Below the pieces are notes generated by a model that saw only the letters and a list, made by a program, of their open reading frames with translations, was not told the DNA's origin and ran no database searches. Shown here in pieces: positions 14,752-29,205 of a stretch of DNA of 38,896 nucleotides. The DNA comes from Acidimicrobiales bacterium (GTDB lineage Bacteria > Actinomycetota > Acidimicrobiia > Acidimicrobiales > RAAP-2): positions 1 to 38,896 of the forward strand of contig JASHYA010000156.1 of the NCBI GenBank assembly GCA_030043315.1. The letters are read 5' to 3'. The number at the start of each line of letters is the position of its first letter. Within the stretch, counting starts at the first letter, position 1. Position numbers and translations under genes: made by a program.

Positions 14752-15939
14752 TCAACGCCCGGTGGGCGGCGTACGCGCACCGTCCTTCCACGTCGCTCCG
14801 ACGAGCGGGACCCCCGGCCGGTACGGGAGGTGGAGGTACGTCGGTGCGTCGAGCACGGCGAGGTCCGCCCGCGCGCCGTGGCGCAGATGGCCCACGTCGT
14901 CACGCCGGAGCGCCTTCGCCCCGCCCAGCGTCGCGGCGGCGAGCGCCTCCTCCGGCGACATGTGGAGCTCGCGCACGGCGAGCGCGATGCACAGCGGCAT
15001 GCTCGTGGTGTAGCTCGTCCCTGGGTTGCAGTCCGTGGCAAGGGCGACCGTGACCCCCGCATCGAGGAGCCGACGCGCGTCCGGGTACGGGGCACGCAAC
15101 GAGAAGTCGCACGCGGGGAGGAGCGTGGCGACGGTCGCCGAGCCGGCCAACAGCTCGACGTCGTCGTCGCTGAGGTACGTGCAATGGTCGGCGGAGGCTG
15201 CCCGTGCCTTCACGGCGACCCGGACGCCGGGTCCGTGGCCGAGCTGGTTCGCATGGACCCGTGCGCCGAGCCCGCGTGCCCTGCCCGCGTCGAGCACCAC
15301 CCCGGCCTGGTCGGCATCGAACGCACCCTCGTCGCAGAAGACGTCCACCCATCGCGCGAAACGGGCGCACGCGTCGAGCATCGCACCGGCGACCAGCGCC
15401 ACGTAGTCGTCGGCGCGTCCGGCGAACTCGCCCGGCACGACGTGCGCTCCGAGGAAGGTCGTCTCCTCGGTGACCGCGCGCGCGAGCCGGAGGCACCTCG
15501 CCTCGTGCTCGACGGCGAGCCCGTAGCCGGACTTGCACTCGAAGGTCGTGGTGCCGGCGCGCAAGGCCTCCGCCGTCAGCCGCGCGAGCGTCCCTGAGAG
15601 TTCGGAATCGCTCGCCACCCTGGTCGCGGCCACCGTCGTCTCGATGCCGCCCGCCGCGTAAGGGCGTCCGGCCATCCGTGCGGCGAACTCAGTGGCCCGG
15701 TCGCCGGCGAAGACCATGTGCGTGTGGCTGTCGACGAAGCCCGGGACGATCGCGGCGCCGGCAATGTCGACGACCTCGTCCCCCGCACCTTGCGGCGCGG
15801 CGTCGTCCGGGCCGGTCCACGCGACACGCCCTGTCTCGACGAAGAGCGCGGCGTCGTGGAGGACCCCGAGCGGGCCTTCGCCCGCGGCCGGATCGTTCGT
15901 CACGAGCTCTCCGATACGGCGGAAGAGCACCGATCCCAC
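14752..15939 (-). CDS. hutI: Imidazolonepropionase
   Basis: [43 protein letters not shown]...[12 protein letters not shown]-like [16 protein letters not shown]...[16 protein letters not shown]. Confidence 0.95.
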
Positions 15940-15951
15940 GTGGCCCGTGCC

Positions 15952-17310
15952 TCAGCCGTTGCCCGCCGCGCGGACCACGTCGTCGATGACGCGGCCAAGA
16001 TCGCTCGCCACGTCCTCGATCAGCAGGTGGCGTCCCTCGGCGACGACGTGGCGTCCCGAGACCACCACATCGGTGACGTCGGGCGCCCCCGCCGCGAACA
16101 CGACGTGCTCGAGCAGCGTGCCGCGCGCTGCGCCGGCGAGCCGCACCGACGAGAGCGCCACGGTGACCAGGTCCGCGGGCGCCCCGGACTCGAGCCGTCC
16201 CGCCTCCGGCCAGCCGATCGCCCGGTGGCCCGCGGCCGTCGCCGCGTTCAGGAGCGCCGCAGCGCTGAACCGGCCCCGGAGCCCGGACGCCAACCGCTCG
16301 TCGAGCTCGAGTGCACGCGCCTCTTCGAACGGATCCACCACCGCATGGCTGTCGGTGCCGAGGGCGATCGGGGACCCCTCCTCGGCGAGGGTGTAGGCGG
16401 GGCCGATCCCATCGGCGAGCGCACGCTCGGTGGTCGGGCACATGCACACCGTCGTCCCGCTCGCACCCAGCGTCCTCGCACCCTCGGGGCCGAGGTGGGT
16501 CGCGTGGACCGCGGTCGTAGCGGGCCCGAGCGCACCGCCTGCAGCGAGGAGGGCGACCGGTGGCGCGTCGTAGGCGGCGACGACTGCGTCGTTCTCCCCG
16601 GGCTGCTCGGAGACGTGGACGTGGAACGGAACGTGGTGGGCCCCGGCCCAGGCCGCAACCTCACCCGCAGCACTGGGCGGGACCGCGCGCAGCGAGTGGG
16701 CCGCTGCGCCGACCCTGGCCCCGCCCCGGGGCGGCGACCCGGTGAGGGCCTCGACCCGGGACGCCCAGGTCGCCACGTCCCCGTCGGAGAACCGCTCCTG
16801 GACCCCTTCCGCCGGTTCCCCCGGCGCCCGCTCCAGATAGCAGGTGTCGACGAGGGTGAGGCGGATCCCCGCGTCGCGGGCGGCGTCGAAAAGCGCGAGA
16901 CCCATCTCGTTCGGGTCGGCGTACCGCCGGCCGCCGGCCGCATGGTGGAGGTAGTGGAACTCGCCGACCGCGCAGTAGCCGGCCAGCACCATCTCGGCGT
17001 ACACGGCACGCGCGAGCCGCCGGTACAGGTCGGGGTCCAGGACGGCCGCGACCGCGTACATCTCGTCGCGCCAGCTCCAGAAGTCTCCCGGCCGTTCGAC
17101 GCGCCCGCGCAACACGCGGTGGAACGCATGACTGTGCGCGTTGGCGAACCCGGGCAGGGTGAGCCCCGCGAGCCGGGCGTCGCCCGACGCGGGGACAACC
17201 CCACGTTCCACGGCCGAGATGGACTCACCGTCGACGGTGATCGCCACGTCCGCCACGGCCTCGTTCCCCCCCAGGTACGCGAAGTCGCAGTGGTACCGCC
17301 TCACTGCCAC
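15952..17310 (-). CDS. hutF: Formimidoylglutamate deiminase
   Basis: LPGFANAHSHAFHRVLRGRVE...FWSWRDEMYAVAAVLDPDLYRRLARAVYAEMVLAGYCAVGEFHYLHHAAGG, typical of HutF. Lies in the hut operon. Confidence 0.93.
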   Translation of the reverse strand: MAVRRYHCDFAYLGGNEAVADVAITVDGESISAVERGVVPASGDARLAGLTLPGFANAHSHAFHRVLRGRVERPGDFWSWRDEMYAVAAVLDPDLYRRLARAVYAEMVLAGYCAVGEFHYLHHAAGGRRYADPNEMGLALFDAARDAGIRLTLVDTCYLERAPGEPAEGVQERFSDGDVATWASRVEALTGSPPRGGARVGAAAHSLRAVPPSAAGEVAAWAGAHHVPFHVHVSEQPGENDAVVAAYDAPPVALLAAGGALGPATTAVHATHLGPEGARTLGASGTTVCMCPTTERALADGIGPAYTLAEEGSPIALGTDSHAVVDPFEEARALELDERLASGLRGRFSAAALLNAATAAGHRAIGWPEAGRLESGAPADLVTVALSSVRLAGAARGTLLEHVVFAAGAPDVTDVVVSGRHVVAEGRHLLIEDVASDLGRVIDDVVRAAGNG

Positions 17311-18533
17311 ACGAGCTCCTCCAGCACGCGGGAGAGCGCCCGGACACCGTCGACACAGTCCTCGTCGGACGCGTGCTCATCGGGGCTGTGGCTCACCCCC
17401 GTCGGGTTCCGCACGAACAGCATCGAGGTCGGGACCACTTGGGCAAGTACTCCCGCATCGTGGCCCGCGCCGGTCGGCATCTCGGGAGCAGCGTCCCCGA
17501 GCGCGCGGGCGACGCGTGCACGCAGCTCCTCGTCGAACGCGACCGCCGCGGATCGCGACTCCTCGACCACGCGGCACGAGACGCCGTGCTCGGCCGCGGA
17601 TCGCTCCCCTTCCGCGCGCACCTCGCCGACGATCTCTTCGAGCGTCACCTCGGCGGGCGCACGCGCGTCGAGCCACGCCTCCACCGACGCAGCGACGGCG
17701 TTCGTCGCGTTCGGTCTCACTGCGACACGACCGACGGTCGCGAGCCCGCCGCGGCCCGCCGCCGCGGTGCGCGCCGTGGCGACCGCCGCCGCGAACGGCA
17801 ACATCGGGTCCCTGCGGTCCTCCAATCGCGCGGTGCCCGCGTGGTTGGCCTCACCTTCGAGGCAGATCCGCCACCGGCCGTGCGGCCAGATCTCGGTGGC
17901 GATCCCGACGGCCGCTCCCGCGTCCGAGAGGAAGCGGCCCTGCTCCACGTGGAGCTCGACAAACGCCGCGAGTCCTCCCATCCGCTCCTCGTCCCGACCG
18001 AGCGCGCCGGGATCGTTGCCCGCGCCGTGCATGGCGTCGGCGAGCGACGTTCCCGTCGCGTCCAGGAGGGCGCACGCGCGCCCAGGGTCGAGCGCGCCCA
18101 CCGAGAGCTTGCTCCCGAGACACGCCACGCCGAAGCGCGCTCCCTCTTCTTCGGTGAAGCCCACGACCGCGACCGGTCTGCTCGGCGCGGCACCCCCAGC
18201 CCGCAGCTCGTCCAGGGCGAGAAAGGCGGCGACCACCCCGAGGGGCCCGTCGTAAGCGCCGCCCCCCGGCACGCTGTCGAGGTGGCTCCCCGTCGCCAGC
18301 GCGCCAGCCGGAGGTGCGCCCCCGGCGGGGTCGTGTCCCCACCACGCCCAGAGGTTCCCGTTCCGGTCCTGCTCGACCACCAGGTCGCGCGCGGTCGCCG
18401 TGCGACGGAACCACGCCCGAAGCTCCAGATCCGCGCCGGTCCACGCGAAGCGGTCGTAACCGCCATCAGGCCGACGCCCGATCGGGGCGAGCTCCGTCCA
18501 CATGGCCCGGAAGCCCGAGAGGAGGTCGGTCAT
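17301..18533 (-). CDS. M20-family amidohydrolase (allantoate amidohydrolase / N-carbamoyl-L-amino acid hydrolase family) in the hut operon
   Basis: GSHLDSVPGGGAYDGPLGVVAAFLALDEL...VVGFTEEEGARFGVACLGSKL...FVELHVEQG...HAGTARLEDRRDP...AGHDAGVLAQ. Overlaps hutF by 10 nt. Confidence 0.9.
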   Translation of the reverse strand: MTDLLSGFRAMWTELAPIGRRPDGGYDRFAWTGADLELRAWFRRTATARDLVVEQDRNGNLWAWWGHDPAGGAPPAGALATGSHLDSVPGGGAYDGPLGVVAAFLALDELRAGGAAPSRPVAVVGFTEEEGARFGVACLGSKLSVGALDPGRACALLDATGTSLADAMHGAGNDPGALGRDEERMGGLAAFVELHVEQGRFLSDAGAAVGIATEIWPHGRWRICLEGEANHAGTARLEDRRDPMLPFAAAVATARTAAAGRGGLATVGRVAVRPNATNAVAASVEAWLDARAPAEVTLEEIVGEVRAEGERSAAEHGVSCRVVEESRSAAVAFDEELRARVARALGDAAPEMPTGAGHDAGVLAQVVPTSMLFVRNPTGVSHSPDEHASDEDCVDGVRALSRVLEELVWQ

Positions 18534-18557: not shown

Positions 18558-20099
18558 TCACCTGATGGGTCCGGCGACCGCCGCGGCCGCCTCGACGACC
18601 GCCCCGGTCGCGACGAACGCCTCGGCGGCGGCCAGCTCCGGAGAGGTGAACCGGTCCGGCCCCGGTCCAGGTACCCGTTCGCGCAGGGCGGCCACCACCG
18701 CCCCCGACGCTGGCGCGAACGCGAGCGGCGCACGCAGCTCGAGCCCGCGCGCGGCCGTCACCAGCTCGACGGCGAGGATCCGCCGGAGGTTGTCGACCGC
18801 GCGCCGAAGCTTGCGCCCCGCGCTCCAACCCATCGAGACGTGGTCCTCCTGCATCGCCGAGCTCGGGATCGAATCGACGCTCGCGGGTGCCGCCAGCCGC
18901 TTGTTCTCCGAGACCATCGCCGCCTGGGTGTACTGGGCCATCATCAGCCCCGAGTCAACCCCGGGGTCCCGAGCCAGAAACGGCGGGAGGCCGTGGGACC
19001 GCGTCCGGTCGAGCAGCCGGTCGGTCCGGCGCTCCGAGATGGAGCCGAGGTCGGCGGTGGCGATGGCGAGGAAGTCCAGTACGTAGCCGAGCGGCGCACC
19101 GTGGAAGTTCCCGTTGGAGGTCACCTCTCCGCTCTCGAGGACGACCGGGTTGTCGATCGTCGCGGCAAGCTCGCGCTGGGCGACCGCCGCCGCGTGCGAG
19201 ATGGTGTCCCGCACGGCACCGGCAACCTGTGGCGCGCACCGGCACGAGTAGGGGTCCTGGACACGCGGATCGCCAGTCCGGTGCGAGGCGACGATCGCAG
19301 AGCCTGCCATCACCCTCATCATGTTGTCCGCGCTCACCGCCTGGCCCGGGTGGGGGCGGAGCGGCGCGTGCAGCTCCGGGCGGAACGCCTGATCGGTCCC
19401 GAGCAGGGCCTCGACGCTCATCGCCGCCGTCACGTCCGCGGTCGCGCAGAGGAGCTCGAGATCCGAGATCGCCAGCACGAGCATCCCGAGCATGCCGTCG
19501 GTGCCGTTGATGAGCGCGAGCCCCTCTTTCGCCGCGAGGCGCACCGGCGCGAGGCCGACAGCCGCGAGGGCCTCGGCGCCAGGGACCCTGGCGCCGCCGT
19601 CCTCGCCGAGGACCTCTCCCTCCCCCATCGCCACGAGCGCGCAGTGCGCGAGGGGGGCGAGGTCGCCGCTGCAGCCGAGAGAGCCCTGCTCGGGCACGAG
19701 CGGGGTGATCCCGGCGTTCAGCATCCGGACGAACGCCTCGGCGACCAGCGGGCGGGCCCCCGTCCGTCCCGACGCCAGGGTCTTCAGGCGGAGGAACATG
19801 AGCGCCCGCACCACTTCGCGCTCCACCGGCGGGCCCATGCCTGCCGCGTGCGATCGGATGAGGCTCACCTGGAGGTCGTCGCGGAGCTCGGGCGGGATGT
19901 GGCGGGTGGCGAGCGCTCCGAAGCCGGTCGAGATGCCGTACGCGGGCTCCGTGGCCGCAGCCAGCCGTTCCACGGCCGCGCGCGACGTCGCCATCGCGGC
20001 GAGCGCGTCCGTCGTGAGGCGGACCGGCGCGTCTTCGCGCGCAACCGCCACGACGTCTGTCGCCGTGACGCCCGAGCTCGAGACCGAGACGGTGGTCAT
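18558..20099 (-). CDS. hutH: Histidine ammonia-lyase
   Basis: YGISTGFGALATRHIPPELRDDLQVSLIRSHAAGMGPPVE...EQGSLGCSGDLAPLAHCALVAMGEG...NGTDGMLGMLVLAISDL. Confidence 0.95.
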   Translation of the reverse strand: MTTVSVSSSGVTATDVVAVAREDAPVRLTTDALAAMATSRAAVERLAAATEPAYGISTGFGALATRHIPPELRDDLQVSLIRSHAAGMGPPVEREVVRALMFLRLKTLASGRTGARPLVAEAFVRMLNAGITPLVPEQGSLGCSGDLAPLAHCALVAMGEGEVLGEDGGARVPGAEALAAVGLAPVRLAAKEGLALINGTDGMLGMLVLAISDLELLCATADVTAAMSVEALLGTDQAFRPELHAPLRPHPGQAVSADNMMRVMAGSAIVASHRTGDPRVQDPYSCRCAPQVAGAVRDTISHAAAVAQRELAATIDNPVVLESGEVTSNGNFHGAPLGYVLDFLAIATADLGSISERRTDRLLDRTRSHGLPPFLARDPGVDSGLMMAQYTQAAMVSENKRLAAPASVDSIPSSAMQEDHVSMGWSAGRKLRRAVDNLRRILAVELVTAARGLELRAPLAFAPASGAVVAALRERVPGPGPDRFTSPELAAAEAFVATGAVVEAAAAVAGPIR

Positions 20100-20175: not shown

Positions 20176-21867
20176 TCACGCCGGCTCGCCGGACGTCATG
20201 GGTATCCGGACGTGGTGCACGTCGGCGACCGTCCCAGCTTCGGGGTACCCCGCGTCCACGTGACGCAGAACTCCCATCGTCGGATCGTTCGTCAGCACCC
20301 GTTGGAGCTTTGCCGCCGCGAGGTCCGAGCCGTCGGCAAGACACACCTGTCCCGCGTGGATCGACCGTCCGATACCCACGCCGCCGCCGTGATGGATCGA
20401 CACCCAAGAGGCGCCACTGGCAGTGGAGACCAGCGCGTTCAGAAGCGGCCAGTCCGCAATCGCGTCGGAGCCGTCTCGCATCGCCTCGGTCTCGCGGTAC
20501 GGGGAGGCGACCGAGCCGCAGTCCAGGTGGTCGCGCCCGATCACGATCGGCGCGGAGACCTCGCCGGAGGCGACCATCTCGTTGAACCGCCCCCCGGCAC
20601 GGTCACGCTCGCCCAGGCCGAGCCAGCAGATCCGCGCCGGCAGCCCCTGGAAGTGGACCCGCTCGCCTGCGACGCGGATCCAGCGCACGAGCCTGTCGTT
20701 GTCGGAGAAGAGCTCCGTCACTGCCGCGTCGGTGGCCGCGATGTCCTTGGGGTCCCCGGAGAGCGCCACCCACCGGAACGGCCCCTTCCCCTCGCAGAAC
20801 AGCGGTCGGATGTAGGCCGGCACGAAGCCGGGGTAGTCGAACGCGCGATCGAACCCGCCGAGTCGGGCCTCGGCCCTGAGGCTGTTGCCGTAGTCGAAGA
20901 CCTCCGCTCCCCTGTCCATGAGCGTGACGAGCGCCTCGCAGTGGACGGCCATCGCGGCCCGGGCCCTGCGCAGGTACCCGTCCGGGTCGTCGTTGCGCAG
21001 GCGCCCCGCTTCCTCGAGCGAAAGGCCCGGCGGGACGTAGCTGAGCGGGTCGTGCGCGGGGGTCTGATCCGTCGCGATATCGACCGGCACGTCACGGCGG
21101 ACAAGTTCGGGGAGCACCTCGGCGCCGTTGCCGACAAGTCCGACCGACAGGGCCCTTGCGTCACGGCGGGCGTGCTCCGCCAGTTCGACCGCCTCATCGA
21201 GGCTGTGCGCGAGCGTGTCGAGGTAGCCCGTCGACAAGCGTCGCTCGATCCTGGTCGGGTCGACGTCGCAACAGATCACCGCCCCACCGTTGATGGTGAC
21301 AGCGAGCGGCTGGGCGCCACCCATCCCCCCGGCACCCGAGGTGACCGTGACCGTGCCCGCCAGCGTCCCGCCGAAGCGCTTCTCCGCCACCGCAGCGAAG
21401 GTCTCGTAGGTCCCCTGCAAGATGCCCTGGGTGCCGATGTAGATCCACGACCCGGCCGTCATCTGGCCGTACATGGTGAGGCCGAGGGCCTCGAGCCGGC
21501 GAAACTCCTCCCACGTCGCCCAGTCGGGAACCAGGTTCGAATTGGCGATCAGAACCCGGGGCGCCCACTCGTGCGTGGTGACCACACCGACCGGCCGTCC
21601 CGACTGGACGAGGAGCGTCTCGTCTTTCTCGAGCGCGCCGAGGGCCCGCTCGATCGCGTGGAACGAGGGCCAGTCGCGCGCTGCCTTCCCCGATCCGCCG
21701 TAGACGACCAGCTCCTCGGGGTGCTCGGCGACCTCGGGGTCGAGGTTGTTGCGGAGCATGCGGAGCGCGGCTTCCTGCGGCCATCCCTTGCACGTGATCC
21801 TCGACCCCCTCGGCGCGCGAACGGCCTCGGGCCGTCGGCGACCACGTGCGTCCTCGACCACCGTCAC
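20176..21867 (-). CDS. hutU: Urocanate hydratase
   Basis: [43 protein letters not shown]...[17 protein letters not shown]...[36 protein letters not shown]. Confidence 0.96.
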
Positions 21868-21904: not shown

Positions 21905-22726
21905 CTAATGCGCCACCGCGGGGGACACCTTGCTCACCGGCGACAGTCCCCCGAGCCTGGCCGTAGCCCGACCGGCCGCAGCCACCACCTCGGCTGCCAC
22001 TTCGACCGGCGAGGTCCTCGCGTCCATGAGGAAGCTCACGCCCACCGCCCCGCAGCAGGAGTGCAGGTCGAAGACCGGGGCAGCGACGCACTCGATACCG
22101 GACACCGTGTCGCCCTCGTCTACCGCGTACCCGCGGGACCGGATCTCGGCCAACTCCGCGGCGAGCTCGTCACGAGTCCGCCGACGACCGTCACTGCTCG
22201 GCTGCTCCGGGTCCAGGTGAGGTGCGACCTCTTCGGAATCGAGCCACGCGAGGCATGCCTTGCCGACCGAGGTCCATTGCGCGGGGAGCCTCACCCCGAC
22301 CGCGGTCACCAGCTGCACGCCGAGGAGAGGGGGGTCCTCCTTCCAGAGGTAGATGACGTCGGTGCCGGCGAGGACCGCGAAGTGAGACGTGGCTTGGAGC
22401 CGGCGCGTCAGATCCCGAAGTACCGGAGCGATCTCGCTCATCGGATTGGCGCGGTGCAGCAGTGCGGATCCGACCTCGAACGCTTTCACACCGATCTTGT
22501 AGGTCCCCGGCTCGGCCGGCTCGACGAACCCTTCCGAGATCAGGTCCTGGAGCACCGCGTGCACAGAGCTCTTCGGCGCACCCAGCGCCGCGGTGATGCC
22601 GCTGAGCGGCATGGGCCTCTCGGAACCTGCGAGGAGCTCGAGCACTCGCACCGCCCTCGGGACCGCCGTGCCCATGTGCACCCCTTGCACGCCATCACGC
22701 CTCGCCGGGTCGGGTCGGCCGGCCAT
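21905..22726 (-). CDS. IclR-family transcriptional regulator
   Basis: AVPRAVRVLELLAGSERPMPLSGITAALGAPKSSVHAVLQDLISEGFVEPAEPGTYKIGVKAFEVGSALL: IclR wHTH plus effector domain. Confidence 0.92.
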   Translation of the reverse strand: MAGRPDPARRDGVQGVHMGTAVPRAVRVLELLAGSERPMPLSGITAALGAPKSSVHAVLQDLISEGFVEPAEPGTYKIGVKAFEVGSALLHRANPMSEIAPVLRDLTRRLQATSHFAVLAGTDVIYLWKEDPPLLGVQLVTAVGVRLPAQWTSVGKACLAWLDSEEVAPHLDPEQPSSDGRRRTRDELAAELAEIRSRGYAVDEGDTVSGIECVAAPVFDLHSCCGAVGVSFLMDARTSPVEVAAEVVAAAGRATARLGGLSPVSKVSPAVAH

Positions 22727-22777
22727 GGGTGACGCGTCGTCTCACGGCGACGCACGGCGGCGTGGAAGACCCCAGCT

Positions 22778-22793
22778 GTTCCTATATACGAAC
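22778..22793. promoter_or_regulatory. Operator-like palindrome GTTCCTATATACGAAC in the iclR/ABC-operon intergenic region
   Basis: Imperfect dyad (GTTC..TATATA..GAAC); its reverse complement matches a second site at 22920-22935 at 14 of 16 positions. Confidence 0.6.
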
Positions 22794-22919
22794 CCCTTTC
22801 AAGCTACTCGGGGTGCTTCCCCCTCACAATCCGCCCCCGGGGGTACGTCCTCGCCGGATGCCCGGGTTGACCCTCCCCAGAGCCACTGTCATCATGGAGC
22901 CCGTTCATTTTGTAACGGC

Positions 22920-22935
22920 GTCCGTATATGGGAAC
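22920..22935. promoter_or_regulatory. Second operator-like palindrome GTCCGTATATGGGAAC just upstream of the ABC substrate-binding protein start
   Basis: 14/16 identity to GTTCGTATATAGGAAC (reverse complement of site 1); 25 bp upstream of the proposed GTG start at 22961. Confidence 0.6.
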
Positions 22936-22960
22936 GGCCGGACCTATTGGGGGGTGCTGC

Positions 22961-23881
22961 GTGAGGCTCCGGAATTTCTCTGTGTGGTGCCTATTGGCGT
23001 GCCTTGCGGCGACGACCTCGACGTTCGCGGTGAGCGGCCTGGCCGGCGCCTCGCCTCACTCAGGAGGAACGCCTTCCGCCTGGAAGAAGGCGCGGGCACT
23101 CGTCCCGGCGGCAATCCGCAAGAGCGGCGTCGTCACGGTGGCGACGACAGCGTCCTATCCTCCCTACGAGCTCTACGCGTCGAACAACAAGACAATCGTC
23201 GGCGTCGACCCGGACCTCGGGCACGCCATCGGCAAGGTGCTCGGTCTCAAGTTCGAGTTCCACAACGTCACATATGACGACATCCCGACCGAGATCAAGG
23301 ACGGCCACTACGACGTGGGCATGTCGGCAATCGGGGTCTTCAAATTCCGGGAGAAGGTGGTCAACTTCGTCGACTACGCGACGTTCGGCGAGGCGTTCTT
23401 GACGCCCAAGACGAGCTCGTTCAAGGCGGACGACCTCTCGCAGGTCTGCGGCGAGACCATCGCCGCCCAATCGGGGACGAGCGAGTCGATCCAGTTGGGC
23501 AAGCAGAGCAAGATCTGCACCAGCGAGCACAAGAAGGCGGTGACCGCCCTCACGTACCCGAGCGAGAACACCGCGGTGTTGGCCGTGCACAGTGGTCGCG
23601 CACCGGTGTTGTTCGCGGACCTCGCAACGGCCGACTGGGTGCTGAAGGAGAACCCCGGCCAGTACCGGCTCCTCATCGTGCACGACCCCGCGATCAAGGG
23701 GCTCACCGGCCCCTATGGCATCGCTCTGGCGAAGGGCTCCAAGCTCCTCGCGCCGATCGAGGCGGCGGTCAAGATCCTGATCGCCGACGGGACCTACGAG
23801 AAGATCTTCGCCAAGTGGGGCGTGAAGCAGGACGAAGTCCGAACCGTCCAAATCAATCACGGCGTCACAACAACAACATAG
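22961..23881 (+). CDS. ABC transporter substrate-binding protein (polar amino-acid family 3)
   Basis: Hydrophobic leader, then SGVVTVATTASYPPYELYASNNKTIVGVDPDLGHAIGKVLGLKFEFHNVTYDDIPTEIKDGHYDVGMSAIG. GTG 22961 preferred over ATG 22928 because of the GGGGGG RBS. Confidence 0.88.
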   Translation: MRLRNFSVWCLLACLAATTSTFAVSGLAGASPHSGGTPSAWKKARALVPAAIRKSGVVTVATTASYPPYELYASNNKTIVGVDPDLGHAIGKVLGLKFEFHNVTYDDIPTEIKDGHYDVGMSAIGVFKFREKVVNFVDYATFGEAFLTPKTSSFKADDLSQVCGETIAAQSGTSESIQLGKQSKICTSEHKKAVTALTYPSENTAVLAVHSGRAPVLFADLATADWVLKENPGQYRLLIVHDPAIKGLTGPYGIALAKGSKLLAPIEAAVKILIADGTYEKIFAKWGVKQDEVRTVQINHGVTTTT

Positions 23882-23972: not shown

Positions 23973-24965
23973 TTGACGCTCGCACCGCCGACGAGCGAGA
24001 GGACCGGGGCAGAAGCCGACGGGGCGCCGGCGCACGACGAGATCATCCCTGTCCGCCATCCAGGACGGTGGGTCGGTGCCGTGGTGATCACCGTGCTGTT
24101 CGCGATGCTCGTGCACTCGCTGGTCACCGACCCGCGGTACCAGTGGGGCGTCGTCGGGCAGTACTTCGGCTCCGATCTCATCCTCAGTGGGCTCAGGCTC
24201 ACGCTCGAGCTCACCGTCCTTTCGATGCTGATCGGGATCGTCGTCGGCGTGACCGTCGCCGTCATGCGACTATCCCCGAACCCGATCCTCTCCAAGGGGA
24301 GCGCCCTGTACATCTGGTTCTTCCGGGGCACCCCGGTGCTCGTGCAGCTCTTCTTCTGGTACAACATCGCGGCGCTCTACCCCCGCGTCTCGATCGGCGT
24401 GCCGTTCGGTCCCGCGTTCGTCGGCGGGTCGACCAACTCGATCGTCACCCCCCTCATCGCCGCGCTGCTCGGTCTCGGGCTCAATGAGGGCGCCTATATG
24501 GCCGAGATCGTCCGCGCCGGCATCCTCTCGGTGGAGCGGGGTCAGATCGACGCTGCCTCGGCGCTGGGTCTGTCCCGACTCAAGACGATGAAGGGGATCG
24601 TCCTCCCGCAGGCGATGAGGGTGATCATCCCGCCGACCGGTAACGAGACCATCGGGATGCTGAAGACCACTTCGCTGGCGAGCGCGCTCTCCTTGTCCGA
24701 ACTGCTGTTCTCGGCCCAGATCGTCTACGAACGGACGTTCCAGACGATTCCGCTGTTGATCGTGGCCAGTCTCTGGTATCTCATCGTCACGACGGTGCTC
24801 ACCGTCGGGCAGATGCGGATCGAGAGCTACTTCGGCAGGAGCGTCGGCACCCCCGGGGGGGGCAGGCGAAAACGCGCTCGCAGCTACCTCCGGGCGGCCT
24901 TGCGTTTTCACGTCGACGCGCAGGAACTCCTCACACTCGGGAACAGCGGGCGACGCGGACGATGA
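23973..24965 (+). CDS. Amino-acid-type ABC transporter permease
   Basis: HisMQ-type: GLRLTLELTVLSMLIGIVVGVTVAVMRL...YIWFFRGTPVLVQLFFWYN...GAYMAEIVRAGILSVERGQIDAASALGLSRLKTMKGIVLPQAMRVIIPPTGNE. TTG start. Confidence 0.9.
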   Translation: MTLAPPTSERTGAEADGAPAHDEIIPVRHPGRWVGAVVITVLFAMLVHSLVTDPRYQWGVVGQYFGSDLILSGLRLTLELTVLSMLIGIVVGVTVAVMRLSPNPILSKGSALYIWFFRGTPVLVQLFFWYNIAALYPRVSIGVPFGPAFVGGSTNSIVTPLIAALLGLGLNEGAYMAEIVRAGILSVERGQIDAASALGLSRLKTMKGIVLPQAMRVIIPPTGNETIGMLKTTSLASALSLSELLFSAQIVYERTFQTIPLLIVASLWYLIVTTVLTVGQMRIESYFGRSVGTPGGGRRKRARSYLRAALRFHVDAQELLTLGNSGRRGR

Positions 24966-25759
24966 TCCAAGCCGCCGGGAACGCCGATCCTGCCAACGCG
25001 CGGCCGATCGTCCAGGCAGTGCGCGTATGGAAGTCCTACGGGGCGACGTCGGTGCTGCGCGGTGTCAGCTTCGACCTCCGGCCGCACCAGGTGCTGTGCA
25101 TCATGGGCGCGTCGGGATCCGGAAAATCGACCCTTCTGCGTTGCATCAATCACCTCGAGCGCGTAGACGCGGGGAGGATCTGGATCGACGGGAAGCTCAT
25201 CGGCTACCGACCCGAGGGCCACAAGCTGTTCGAGCTCCCCGAGCGCGAGGTGTGCAAGCGGCGCGCCGAGGTCGGCATGGTGTTCCAGCACTTCAACCTC
25301 TTCAAGCACATGACGGTGCTCGAGAACGTCTCCTACGCTCCGATCAAAGTGAAGCGCGTCGACGTCGCAAAAGCCAGGGAGCGGGCCAACCAGCTCATCG
25401 CCCGCGTCGGCCTGGCTGACAAGGCTGCCGCGTATCCAAGCCAGTTGTCGGGCGGGCAACAGCAACGGGTGGCCATCGCCCGGGCACTGGCGATGACACC
25501 CAAGCTCATCCTCTTCGACGAGCCGACCTCCGCCCTCGACCCCGAGCTCGTCAAGGAGGTCCTGGACGTCATCCGGGAACTGGCAACCGACGGCATCTCG
25601 ATGATCGTCGTCACCCATGAGGTCGGCTTTGCCCGCGAGGCGGCCGACTGCATCGCCGTCATGCACGAGGGGCTCATCGTGGAGTCGGGTGCCCCCGATC
25701 AGATGATCGACCAGCCAACCCATCCGCGGACGCGCGAGTTCCTCTCGCAGGTCCTCTGA
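24962..25759 (+). CDS. Amino-acid-type ABC transporter ATP-binding protein (GlnQ/HisP-like)
   Basis: Walker A GASGSGKST, signature LSGGQQQRVAIARAL, Walker B LILFDEPTSALDPE. ATGA overlap with the permease. Confidence 0.93.
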   Translation: MIQAAGNADPANARPIVQAVRVWKSYGATSVLRGVSFDLRPHQVLCIMGASGSGKSTLLRCINHLERVDAGRIWIDGKLIGYRPEGHKLFELPEREVCKRRAEVGMVFQHFNLFKHMTVLENVSYAPIKVKRVDVAKARERANQLIARVGLADKAAAYPSQLSGGQQQRVAIARALAMTPKLILFDEPTSALDPELVKEVLDVIRELATDGISMIVVTHEVGFAREAADCIAVMHEGLIVESGAPDQMIDQPTHPRTREFLSQVL

Positions 25760-25783: not shown

Positions 25784-26950
25784 GTGCGCATCACCGACGT
25801 CGTCTTCCACACCGTCGCCGTCCCGTTCCGGACCGAGGAGGTCTGGGCCTTCGGGCGGCGGTCCCATCTCGAGACGGTGGTCATCGAGATGCTCACCGAC
25901 GAGGGGATCGTCGGCCTGGGCGAGGCCGCCGGCTACCCGAGCATCGGCGTCGTCGAACAGGCCATCGTCACCTCGACGCCTCTCGTGGTGGGGGAGAACC
26001 CGCTGGCGATCGAACGGATCTCGAAGAAGCTCTCCATCCTGGGGGCCTGGCACCACATGAAGGCGAGCAACCCCGGGATCGGTGCGATCGAGATGGCCTG
26101 CTGGGACATCGTCGGCAAGGTCTGCGGTCAGCCCTTGGTCACCCTGTTCGGTGGGCCCGTGCGCGAGCAGGTCGAGTACTTCTACTACCTCAGCCAGGGG
26201 GAGCCCGGTGCGATGGCGGAAGACGCCAAGGCGGGGCTCGGGCGAGGGTTCGGCACCTTCTACATCAAGGTCGGTTCGCCCGACATGTCCATCGACCTCG
26301 CCCGCGTGGCCTCGGTCCGCAGTGCGTTGGGCGACGGGCCGCGCATCCGGGTCGACGCCAACGAGGCATGGTCGACGGCCGGCGCGCTCGGCGCGCTCGG
26401 ACGGCTGGCGGAGTACGACATCGAGCTGGCCGAGCAGCCGGTGCTCGGAACGAACCTGTCGGAGATGGCCTACCTACGCCGTCGCCTCCCCATGCCGCTC
26501 CTCGCCAACGAGTCGTCGTGGACGAGACCGATGCAGCTCGAGGTGATCAAGGCCGGCGCGGCCGACGTCGTCTCCGTGGACAACCAGATGGACGGAGGCC
26601 TCGCCAATCTGAAGCGCGGCGCCGACTTGTGCGAGGTTGCGGGGCTCCCGGTGCTCAAGCACAGCCTCGGAGAGCTGGGCATCGCCATGTACGCCGGCGC
26701 GCACGTGATCGCGAGCAGCGCCAACTTCCTCTTCGCCAGCCAGTCGTACGCCTCGTTCCTCGCCGACGACGTGATCGACGGCTGCGATGCCCTGCCATAC
26801 GTCGACGGCAAGCTCTCCCTCCCGACCAGTCCCGGGATCGGGATCACCCTCGATCGGGACAAGCTCGAGCGCTACAAGGAGGCCCACCGCCGCTCGGTGC
26901 CGTCATCGCCTGTGGGACGGGACTTCTCGCCCATCTGGCCCCGGTGCTGA
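25784..26950 (+). CDS. Enolase-superfamily enzyme (mandelate racemase/muconate lactonizing type)
   Basis: VIEMLTDEGIVGLGEAAGYPS...GIGAIEMACWDIVGKVCGQPLVTLFGG...RVDANEAWS...ELAEQPV...VVSVDNQMDGGLANLKRGADLCEVAGLPVLKHSLGELGIA. Confidence 0.88.
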   Translation: MRITDVVFHTVAVPFRTEEVWAFGRRSHLETVVIEMLTDEGIVGLGEAAGYPSIGVVEQAIVTSTPLVVGENPLAIERISKKLSILGAWHHMKASNPGIGAIEMACWDIVGKVCGQPLVTLFGGPVREQVEYFYYLSQGEPGAMAEDAKAGLGRGFGTFYIKVGSPDMSIDLARVASVRSALGDGPRIRVDANEAWSTAGALGALGRLAEYDIELAEQPVLGTNLSEMAYLRRRLPMPLLANESSWTRPMQLEVIKAGAADVVSVDNQMDGGLANLKRGADLCEVAGLPVLKHSLGELGIAMYAGAHVIASSANFLFASQSYASFLADDVIDGCDALPYVDGKLSLPTSPGIGITLDRDKLERYKEAHRRSVPSSPVGRDFSPIWPRC

Positions 26951-26961
26951 GGGGGGGTGCC

Positions 26962-28128
26962 ATGAACGTGGGCGCGGTGGTCGTGGGTGCGGGTGTCACC
27001 GGCTCGTCGGCGGCCTTCCACCTCACCCGGCTCGGCGTGCGCGAGGTCCTCGTGGTCGACCGCGGCGGACCGGCATCCGGCATGAGCAGCCGCTCGTCGG
27101 CTCTCGTGCGCATGCACTACACGTTCCGACCAGAGGTCGAGTTGGCCGTCCGCAGCGACCGGATGTTCGCGTGCTGGCCGGAGCTGACCGGGAAGCCGCC
27201 GTGCGTCACGCGCACGGGCTTCGTCCGCCTCGTCCGCACGGGCGACGTGGAACGATTGCGCCACAACGTCGCCATGCAACGGGACGTCGGTGCCGACGTC
27301 CGGCTCGTGACCGGAGACGAGCTGAGGAGCCTGGCTCCCGGCATGCGCACCGACGACGTGGCCGTGGCCGCCTACGAGCCCGACGGCGGCTTCGGGGACG
27401 GCGCCGTCGTCGCCGGTGACTTCTTGGCCGCTGCGCGTGAAGCCGGCGCGCGGTTCACAGCAGGCACCGAGGTGCGGGACCTGCTCGTACGGCGGGGAAG
27501 GGTGGAGGGCGTGCTCACCGACAGCGGCCGGGTGGAGGCGGATACGGTCGTCCTCGCAACCGGCCCTTGGTCCCCCCCACTGCTGGCACGACACGGTGTC
27601 TCGCTGCCCATCGAGGCCGAGCTGCACCACGTCGCAGTGGTCCGCCACGTACCCGGCGGAGGCGCGCCCCTGGCCTGCATCGACTCGACCACCTCCACCT
27701 ACTTCCGCCCGGAGGGCACCGGCAACACCACGCTCATCGGCACCCTCACGGGGGAGCGCCCGGCGGCACCCGAAGACGCACTGGCAACCCCGGGGCCCGA
27801 GCAGCTGGCCGAAGTCGTCGGGGCGGCAGCTCGTCGGATACCCGCCCTGGAGCACGCGGGGATCGGTCGGGGCCTCTCCGGCGTCTACGACATGACGCCG
27901 GACGGTCGCCCGCTCCTCGGGGCTGTCGACGGTCTCGAGGGGCTGGTGCTCGCGGTCGGGTTCTCCGGCACCGGCTTCAAGATCTCCCCCGCCGTGGGCG
28001 AGGCCCTCGCCGAGCTGGTCGTGCACGGCAAGAGCCTGAGCGTCGATCTCCGGCCATTCCGACCGAGCCGGTTCGACGAAGGTGCGCCGATCAGCCCTGC
28101 GTGGTCCTATTCCGACGAGTACGACTGA
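26962..28128 (+). CDS. FAD-dependent oxidoreductase (DAO / sarcosine oxidase beta-like family)
   Basis: GAVVVGAGVTGSSAAFHLTRLGVREVLVVDRGG (Rossmann FAD site) and C-terminal DMTPDGRPLLGAVDGLEGLVLAVGFSGTGFKISPAVGEALAELV. Confidence 0.9.
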   Translation: MNVGAVVVGAGVTGSSAAFHLTRLGVREVLVVDRGGPASGMSSRSSALVRMHYTFRPEVELAVRSDRMFACWPELTGKPPCVTRTGFVRLVRTGDVERLRHNVAMQRDVGADVRLVTGDELRSLAPGMRTDDVAVAAYEPDGGFGDGAVVAGDFLAAAREAGARFTAGTEVRDLLVRRGRVEGVLTDSGRVEADTVVLATGPWSPPLLARHGVSLPIEAELHHVAVVRHVPGGGAPLACIDSTTSTYFRPEGTGNTTLIGTLTGERPAAPEDALATPGPEQLAEVVGAAARRIPALEHAGIGRGLSGVYDMTPDGRPLLGAVDGLEGLVLAVGFSGTGFKISPAVGEALAELVVHGKSLSVDLRPFRPSRFDEGAPISPAWSYSDEYD

Positions 28129-28176: not shown

Positions 28177-29205
28177 ATGGTCGACTTCGATGTCGTCGAG
28201 TACCGTCCGGACGCACGCGAGCTCGCGTGGACGTTCGGCGGCGTGCCACCGGTGCGCACGGTCGCACCGGGCACCGTGCTCGAGCTGTGGACCGAGGACG
28301 CGTTCGCGGGCAAGGTGCGCGCCGAGACGGACCTCGTGAGCCGGGTCTGTGAGTTCCCCTTCGTGAACCCGCAGACCGGGCCCTTCCAGGTCGAGGGCGC
28401 GGAGCCGGGCGACACCCTCGCCGTGCACTTCGTCTCGATCGAGCCCTCGCGCGACTGGGCGGTCTCTACCACGGTGCCGCTGTTCGGCGCGCTGACCGCA
28501 ACGCACATCACCGCGATGCTCCACGAGCCGCTACCCGAGGTGGTGTGGGTGTGGCAGCTCGACCGCGCCACGCGCACCTGCCGATTCCGCGCCCGGGACG
28601 GCGGGTGGGCAGTCGACCTCCCGATGGACCCGATGCACGGGACCCTGGGCGTCGCCCCTGCCAACCTCGAGGTCCGCAGCTCGCTCGTGCCGGACGCCTT
28701 CGGGGGCAACATGGACACCCCCGAGCTGCGCACCGGTGTCACCTGCTACCTCGGGGTGAACGTCCCTGGCGCGCTCGTATCCCTGGGCGACGGCCATGCG
28801 CGCCAGGGCGAGGGCGAGACCTGCGGGGTCGCGGTCGAGTGCGCGATGGACACCGTGGTCGTGCTCGACCTCGTGAAGGGGGCGCCATGCCCCTGGCCGC
28901 GCATCGAGAGCGACACCCACATCATGTCGACCGGGTCCGCCCGGCCACTCGAGGACGCCTTCCGGATCGCGCAATCCGACATGGTCTCCTGGCTGCATGC
29001 CGACTTCGGGCTCGACGTGCTCGACGCCTACCAGCTGGTCAGTCAGGCGGTGGAGGCGCCACTCGCCAACGTCGTCGACGTGAACTACACGTCCGTCGCC
29101 AAGATGGCGAAGCGCTGGCTGCCGCCGCGCGAGGTCTTCGCCGGCACCCACGGCAAGCTCCGCGCGGCGGCAGAGGAGTACCGCAAGCGGCGGGGCCGGC
29201 CTTGA
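28177..29205 (+). CDS. Acetamidase/formamidase family amidohydrolase
   Basis: VEGAEPGDTLAVHFVSIEPSRDWAVSTTVPLFG...PMHGTLGVAP...GGNMDTPELRTGVTCYLGVNVPGALVSLGDGHARQGEGETCGVAVECAMD. Confidence 0.9.
   Translation: MVDFDVVEYRPDARELAWTFGGVPPVRTVAPGTVLELWTEDAFAGKVRAETDLVSRVCEFPFVNPQTGPFQVEGAEPGDTLAVHFVSIEPSRDWAVSTTVPLFGALTATHITAMLHEPLPEVVWVWQLDRATRTCRFRARDGGWAVDLPMDPMHGTLGVAPANLEVRSSLVPDAFGGNMDTPELRTGVTCYLGVNVPGALVSLGDGHARQGEGETCGVAVECAMDTVVVLDLVKGAPCPWPRIESDTHIMSTGSARPLEDAFRIAQSDMVSWLHADFGLDVLDAYQLVSQAVEAPLANVVDVNYTSVAKMAKRWLPPREVFAGTHGKLRAAAEEYRKRRGRP

Follow-up and report, generated by a model that had tools for sequence, protein, structure and literature searches.

Two operons lie back to back in a stretch of Acidimicrobiales DNA: a histidine-utilization (hut) operon headed by an iclR gene, and a transporter/catabolic operon on the opposite strand. 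The spacer that separates them holds two matching palindromes, and the question is whether one regulator acts on both operons through these sites. We refer to the whole stretch, 38,896 nucleotides in length, as the window. Its source genome (G000) is a 2.8-Mb Acidimicrobiales MAG, 59% complete; further sites may be missing from it. The genes concerned are the following.

14752–15939, minus strand: hutI, imidazolonepropionase (TIGR01224 above cut-off)
15952–17310, minus strand: hutF, formimidoylglutamate deiminase (TIGR02022 above cut-off)
17301–18533, minus strand: M20-family amidohydrolase, allantoate amidohydrolase-like, inside the hut operon (NF006770 above cut-off)
18558–20099, minus strand: hutH, histidine ammonia-lyase (TIGR01225 above cut-off)
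20176–21867, minus strand: hutU, urocanate hydratase (TIGR01228 above cut-off)
21905–22675, minus strand: iclR, IclR-family regulator (HTH_IclR and IclR_C above Pfam cut-offs); revised start ATG 22675, longer reading beginning at 22726
22961–23881, plus strand: family 3 solute-binding protein, SBP (PF00497 above cut-off); start GTG 22961 with GGGGGG, and a signal-peptide-like N-terminus, both read from the sequence
23973–25759, plus strand: ABC permease (23973–24965, PF00528) and ATPase (24962–25759, PF00005), polar amino acid type (amino-acid importer models, below equivalog cut-offs)
25784–26950, plus strand: enolase-superfamily enzyme (PF13378/PF02746)
26947–28128, plus strand: FAD-dependent oxidase (PF01266)
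28177–29205, plus strand: acetamidase/formamidase (PF03069)

The genes from iclR through hutU, hutH, the M20 gene and hutF to hutI are separated by 37, 76 and 24 nt, an overlap and 12 nt, and because these gaps are short we took them as one operon. The M20 gene, placed between hutH and hutF, may provide the deformylase step after HutF. The divergent operon closes with a gene of the acetamidase/formamidase family, though the hut operon uses HutF, a route on which formamide is not released.

The iclR product belongs to the IclR family (PF09339, 47 bits at a cut-off of 22; PF01614, 93 bits at a cut-off of 24), and at least three more genes of this family are present in the assembly. Of the two candidate starts, ATG 22675 is probably the true one. 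It is preceded by the Shine-Dalgarno sequence AAGGGG and aligns with the likely start of the ortholog in genome G011, whereas ATG 22726 has no evident Shine-Dalgarno sequence.

The palindromes and their rarity

22778–22793, minus strand: site 1, putative operator of the iclR-hut transcript, GTTCGTATATAGGAAC on this strand; rare, and conserved at the iclR promoter of the ortholog
22920–22935, plus strand: site 2, putative operator of the SBP/ABC transcript, GTCCGTATATGGGAAC; rare, with the same TTGAC-hexamer offset as sites in G011 and G163

On the forward strand site 1 reads GTTCCTATATACGAAC. Reverse-complemented, site 2 reads GTTCCCATATACGGAC and is identical to site 1 at 14/16 positions, so that both the positions and the degree of matching given in the original prediction were borne out. 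Self-symmetry amounts to 14/16 for site 1 and 10/16 for site 2. Site 2 ends 25 bp before GTG 22961, the distance that had been claimed. The distance of about 52 bp claimed between site 1 and iclR has to be revised: it is 51 bp from ATG 22726, yet site 1 lies 102 bp upstream of iclR if the gene starts at the likelier ATG 22675.

With up to 3 mismatches, GTTCSTATATASGAAC matched the window twice, against 0.02 matches expected, and none of 100 shuffles reached two. A genome-wide search, proposed as a check on the original prediction, found the motif not to be frequent: at ≤2 mismatches only the two window sites match in the whole 2.8-Mb assembly, and eight further places, each with 3 mismatches, lack the TATAT core. 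The sites are rare because the arms are combined with the ATAT core; by themselves, the arms (GTYC-N8-GRAC) are common, with 11 occurrences in the window. Only four occurrences of TATAT or ATATA are found in the 38.9 kb, and the palindromes account for two.

Conservation of the motif

IclR orthologs were searched in the genus (13 genomes) and in sampled genomes of the family, order and phylum. One close ortholog was found, in G011 (83% identical). Its iclR-hutUH-M20-hutF-hutI operon is syntenic with that of the window, at 74–90% identity, but beside it there is no counterpart to the window's divergent ABC operon. The alignment upstream of iclR retains the palindrome (GTTCGTATATGGGAAC), the −35/−10 pair and the translation start, and much else is poorly conserved. 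G011 has three sites, all on the hut contig, one of them upstream of the iclR-hut operon. The other two lie about 10 kb away, each with a single mismatch to GTTCSYATATRSGAAC, on either side of the divergent start of an SBP5/Opp oligopeptide ABC operon and a HisC-like aminotransferase gene; this transporter operon is non-orthologous to the ABC operon of the window. Thus, a check of orthologous loci found the motif kept at the iclR-hut promoter of G011 and recurring there at a different transporter operon. At ≤1 mismatch, the motif is present in G000 and G011 and absent from the other 11 genus members.

The conservation test rests on this close ortholog and one distant ortholog, the IclR protein of G163 (45% identical). 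The G163 genome contains a single exact GTYCNNATATNNGRAC site, located 124 bp ahead of an operon for an NMT1-type SBP, a permease, an ATPase, IclR and an aminotransferase. Its hutU gene lies on a separate contig with no such site reported there, which indicates that the link between the regulator and hut is not universal. At the G163 site (contig C26, L076:6494–6509, and 20 nt beside it) two perfect GTTC-N8-GAAC palindromes are adjacent, a spacing that has been reported for IclR-family sites in tandem; a second perfect GTTC-N8-GAAC 20 nt away was seen only in G163.

Across the order, the exact motif GTTCNNATATNNGAAC occurs in 11 of 394 genomes and stands beside an IclR gene in G000, G163 and G445. 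The G445 site (contig C105, L111:4478–4493) is a perfect palindrome, GTTCGGATATCCGAAC, located where a different IclR gene (30% identical) starts, and a TTGACG hexamer begins 49 nt earlier. Around the other matches (G016, G028, G082 and eight of the 11 order-level genomes), profile searches detected no IclR homolog within ~1.5 kb, except for a weak G142 match, and tblastn detected no related neighbours beyond generic ABC ATPases. Lacking such neighbours, these matches were set aside as background rather than counted as regulon sites. The G401 site is identical in its letters to the SBP5 site of G011, yet has no related neighbours.

Predicted promoters and sign of control

22801–22829, minus strand: predicted iclR-hut promoter, −35 TTGTGA (22829–22824), 17-nt spacer, −10 TAGCTT (22806–22801); weak, 7/12
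22867–22895, plus strand: predicted SBP-operon promoter, −35 TTGACC, 17-nt spacer, −10 CATCAT, 24 nt before site 2; 9/12

The SBP-operon promoter is the only promoter-like site in 22700–22990, with 0.0 expected from shuffles. The hexamers of the iclR-hut promoter line up with TTGCAA/TAGTCT of the G011 ortholog; in both genomes this predicted promoter is the weaker one, with 7 nt between its end and the operator. Outside iclR-hut, all five cases show a TTGACV hexamer that begins 49–53 nt ahead of the site (53 nt in G000, 52 and 50 nt in G011, 52 nt in G163 and 49 nt at the G445 iclR gene), and 50–53 nt ahead at the four transporter/aminotransferase promoters. Per strand, one TTGACV is found roughly every 2.9 kb; the chance per coincidence is ~0.003 in an 8-nt interval that was picked after the data had been seen. 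Each promoter therefore appears to own an operator, at or just past the predicted start, which would be a repressor geometry. Repressors typically have their operators at or after the start point; the sites of activators are normally found ahead of the −35 element.

We consider it very probable that the palindromes are operators of the adjacent IclR protein, which would repress both iclR-hut and the transporter operon until a ligand releases it. The original prediction of a single regulator for the iclR-hut transcript and the catabolic operon is in this respect supported computationally, by the rarity and the conservation of the motif; binding by this IclR and repression as the sign of control are what we infer from the sequence. 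An IclR dimer, or a pair of dimers, would bind each GTTCnnATATnnGAAC-like site. Site 1 would sit where the iclR-hutU-hutH-M20-hutF-hutI transcript is predicted to start, and site 2 approximately 18–33 nt into the divergent transporter/catabolic transcript. When inducer is missing, IclR would repress in two ways: at its own gene and hut it would keep the promoter from opening, and at the transporter operon it would stop promoter clearance or early elongation. A ligand derived from an amino acid, in the simplest case histidine or urocanate, would release IclR and switch on uptake and breakdown together; naming these two compounds as the inducer is a guess, and one for G000 and G011 only. With an operator at every promoter, looping would not be needed. 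Looping between sites is also not favoured by the site pairs, which show no conserved phase: the centre distances are 142 bp here (13.5 turns, computed at 10.5 bp) and 376 bp in the divergent pair of G011 (35.8 turns). The iclR site of G011, which has no divergent partner site, likewise speaks against looping.

Could the same IclR protein act at these sites as an activator or dual regulator, in the manner of PcaU and PobR? The family includes activators, and the weakness of the iclR-hut promoter would suit one, but at every promoter examined the operator is found at the predicted start or downstream of it, and we regard this reading as unlikely. The sites might instead be operators of a different regulator encoded elsewhere, for instance by one of the further IclR-family genes of the assembly, with the adjacent IclR incidental. 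We give this little credence, as the motif tracks this IclR through the genus, turns up next to IclR genes of G163 and G445, and fits the IclR-family consensus. That the TATAT cores are −10 elements and their palindromy a coincidence is scarcely credible. A TATAT stretch does look like a −10 hexamer and is an unusual find at 70% GC; however, neither core has a good −35 element at 16–19 nt and better promoters lie upstream, for which reasons the cores were rejected as −10 elements. Moreover, the genomes share conserved GTTC/GAAC arms, which a −10 function would not call for. Repression by the adjacent IclR protein is thus the reading we retain.

Relation to known IclR systems

The main IclR-family (group 1) motif is GKTYCRYW3-4RYGRAMC and includes an even-length subgroup (Suvorova and Gelfand 2021, PMC8222616). 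By comparison with this consensus, each window site fits the 16-bp core GTYCRYW4RYGRAC at 15/16. As for group 1 operators, the site centres lie near or upstream of gene starts. The even-length subgroup has RA-W4-TY around the core, whereas the window sites are nearer to RY-W4-RY. They also differ from group 1 in having no tandem pair at 18–22 nt spacing; within 45 nt of the window sites, no tandem or three-box sites were detected at ≤1 mismatch.

The closest analogue is corynebacterial HutR, which the window system resembles in its logic and from which it differs in operator arms and gene set. An IclR-type hutR has been described in corynebacterial hut clusters (C. resistens genome paper, PMC3350403), and the window likewise has an IclR-type gene inside an actinobacterial hut cluster. 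The motif of Corynebacterium resistens HutR, as quoted in PMC8222616 from Schroder et al. 2012, is GTCTGWWATWCCAGAC, again a 16-bp palindrome with an A/T core; its arms are GTCTG/CAGAC, whereas both window sites have GTTC/GAAC arms. In the window, iclR is the first gene of the hut operon, with an ABC-importer operon opposite it, and in place of the HutG of C. resistens there are hutF and the M20 amidohydrolase gene. Over its HTH and effector domains, the window IclR belongs to the same family as BhcR, PcaR/PcaU/PobR, KdgR and IclR of E. coli. All named IclR regulators scored far below their equivalog cut-offs (best, BhcR, 120 bits vs 350), so none of them is shown to be an ortholog. A literature text search for the exact motif in an IclR context returned only an unrelated ArgR paper.

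The operator pair appears to be a well-supported yet ordinary bacterial gene switch of a known kind. It gives the histidine-utilization system of uncultured Acidimicrobiales a candidate regulator, operators and a testable regulon, and predicts histidine or a related amino compound as the substrate class of the importer. Because hutU of G163 lies on a different contig without a reported site, we take the theme common to G000, G011 and G163 to be the uptake and catabolism of amino compounds. There is, in our estimate, an even chance that these genomes share a small lineage-specific IclR regulon, in which the operator and its near-fixed spacing (TTGAC 50–53 nt ahead) are kept, unrelated importers (SBP3, SBP5/Opp, NMT1) are swapped between genomes, and the hut operon has been taken over in some. 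One operator at three unrelated transporters would be a small example of a regulator that stays constant while its target importer is replaced. HisC-like aminotransferases accompany the operator in G011 (L074:18281–19363) and G163 (L076:627–2648) and are 43% identical to each other; a second breakdown route for histidine or imidazole compounds is possible.
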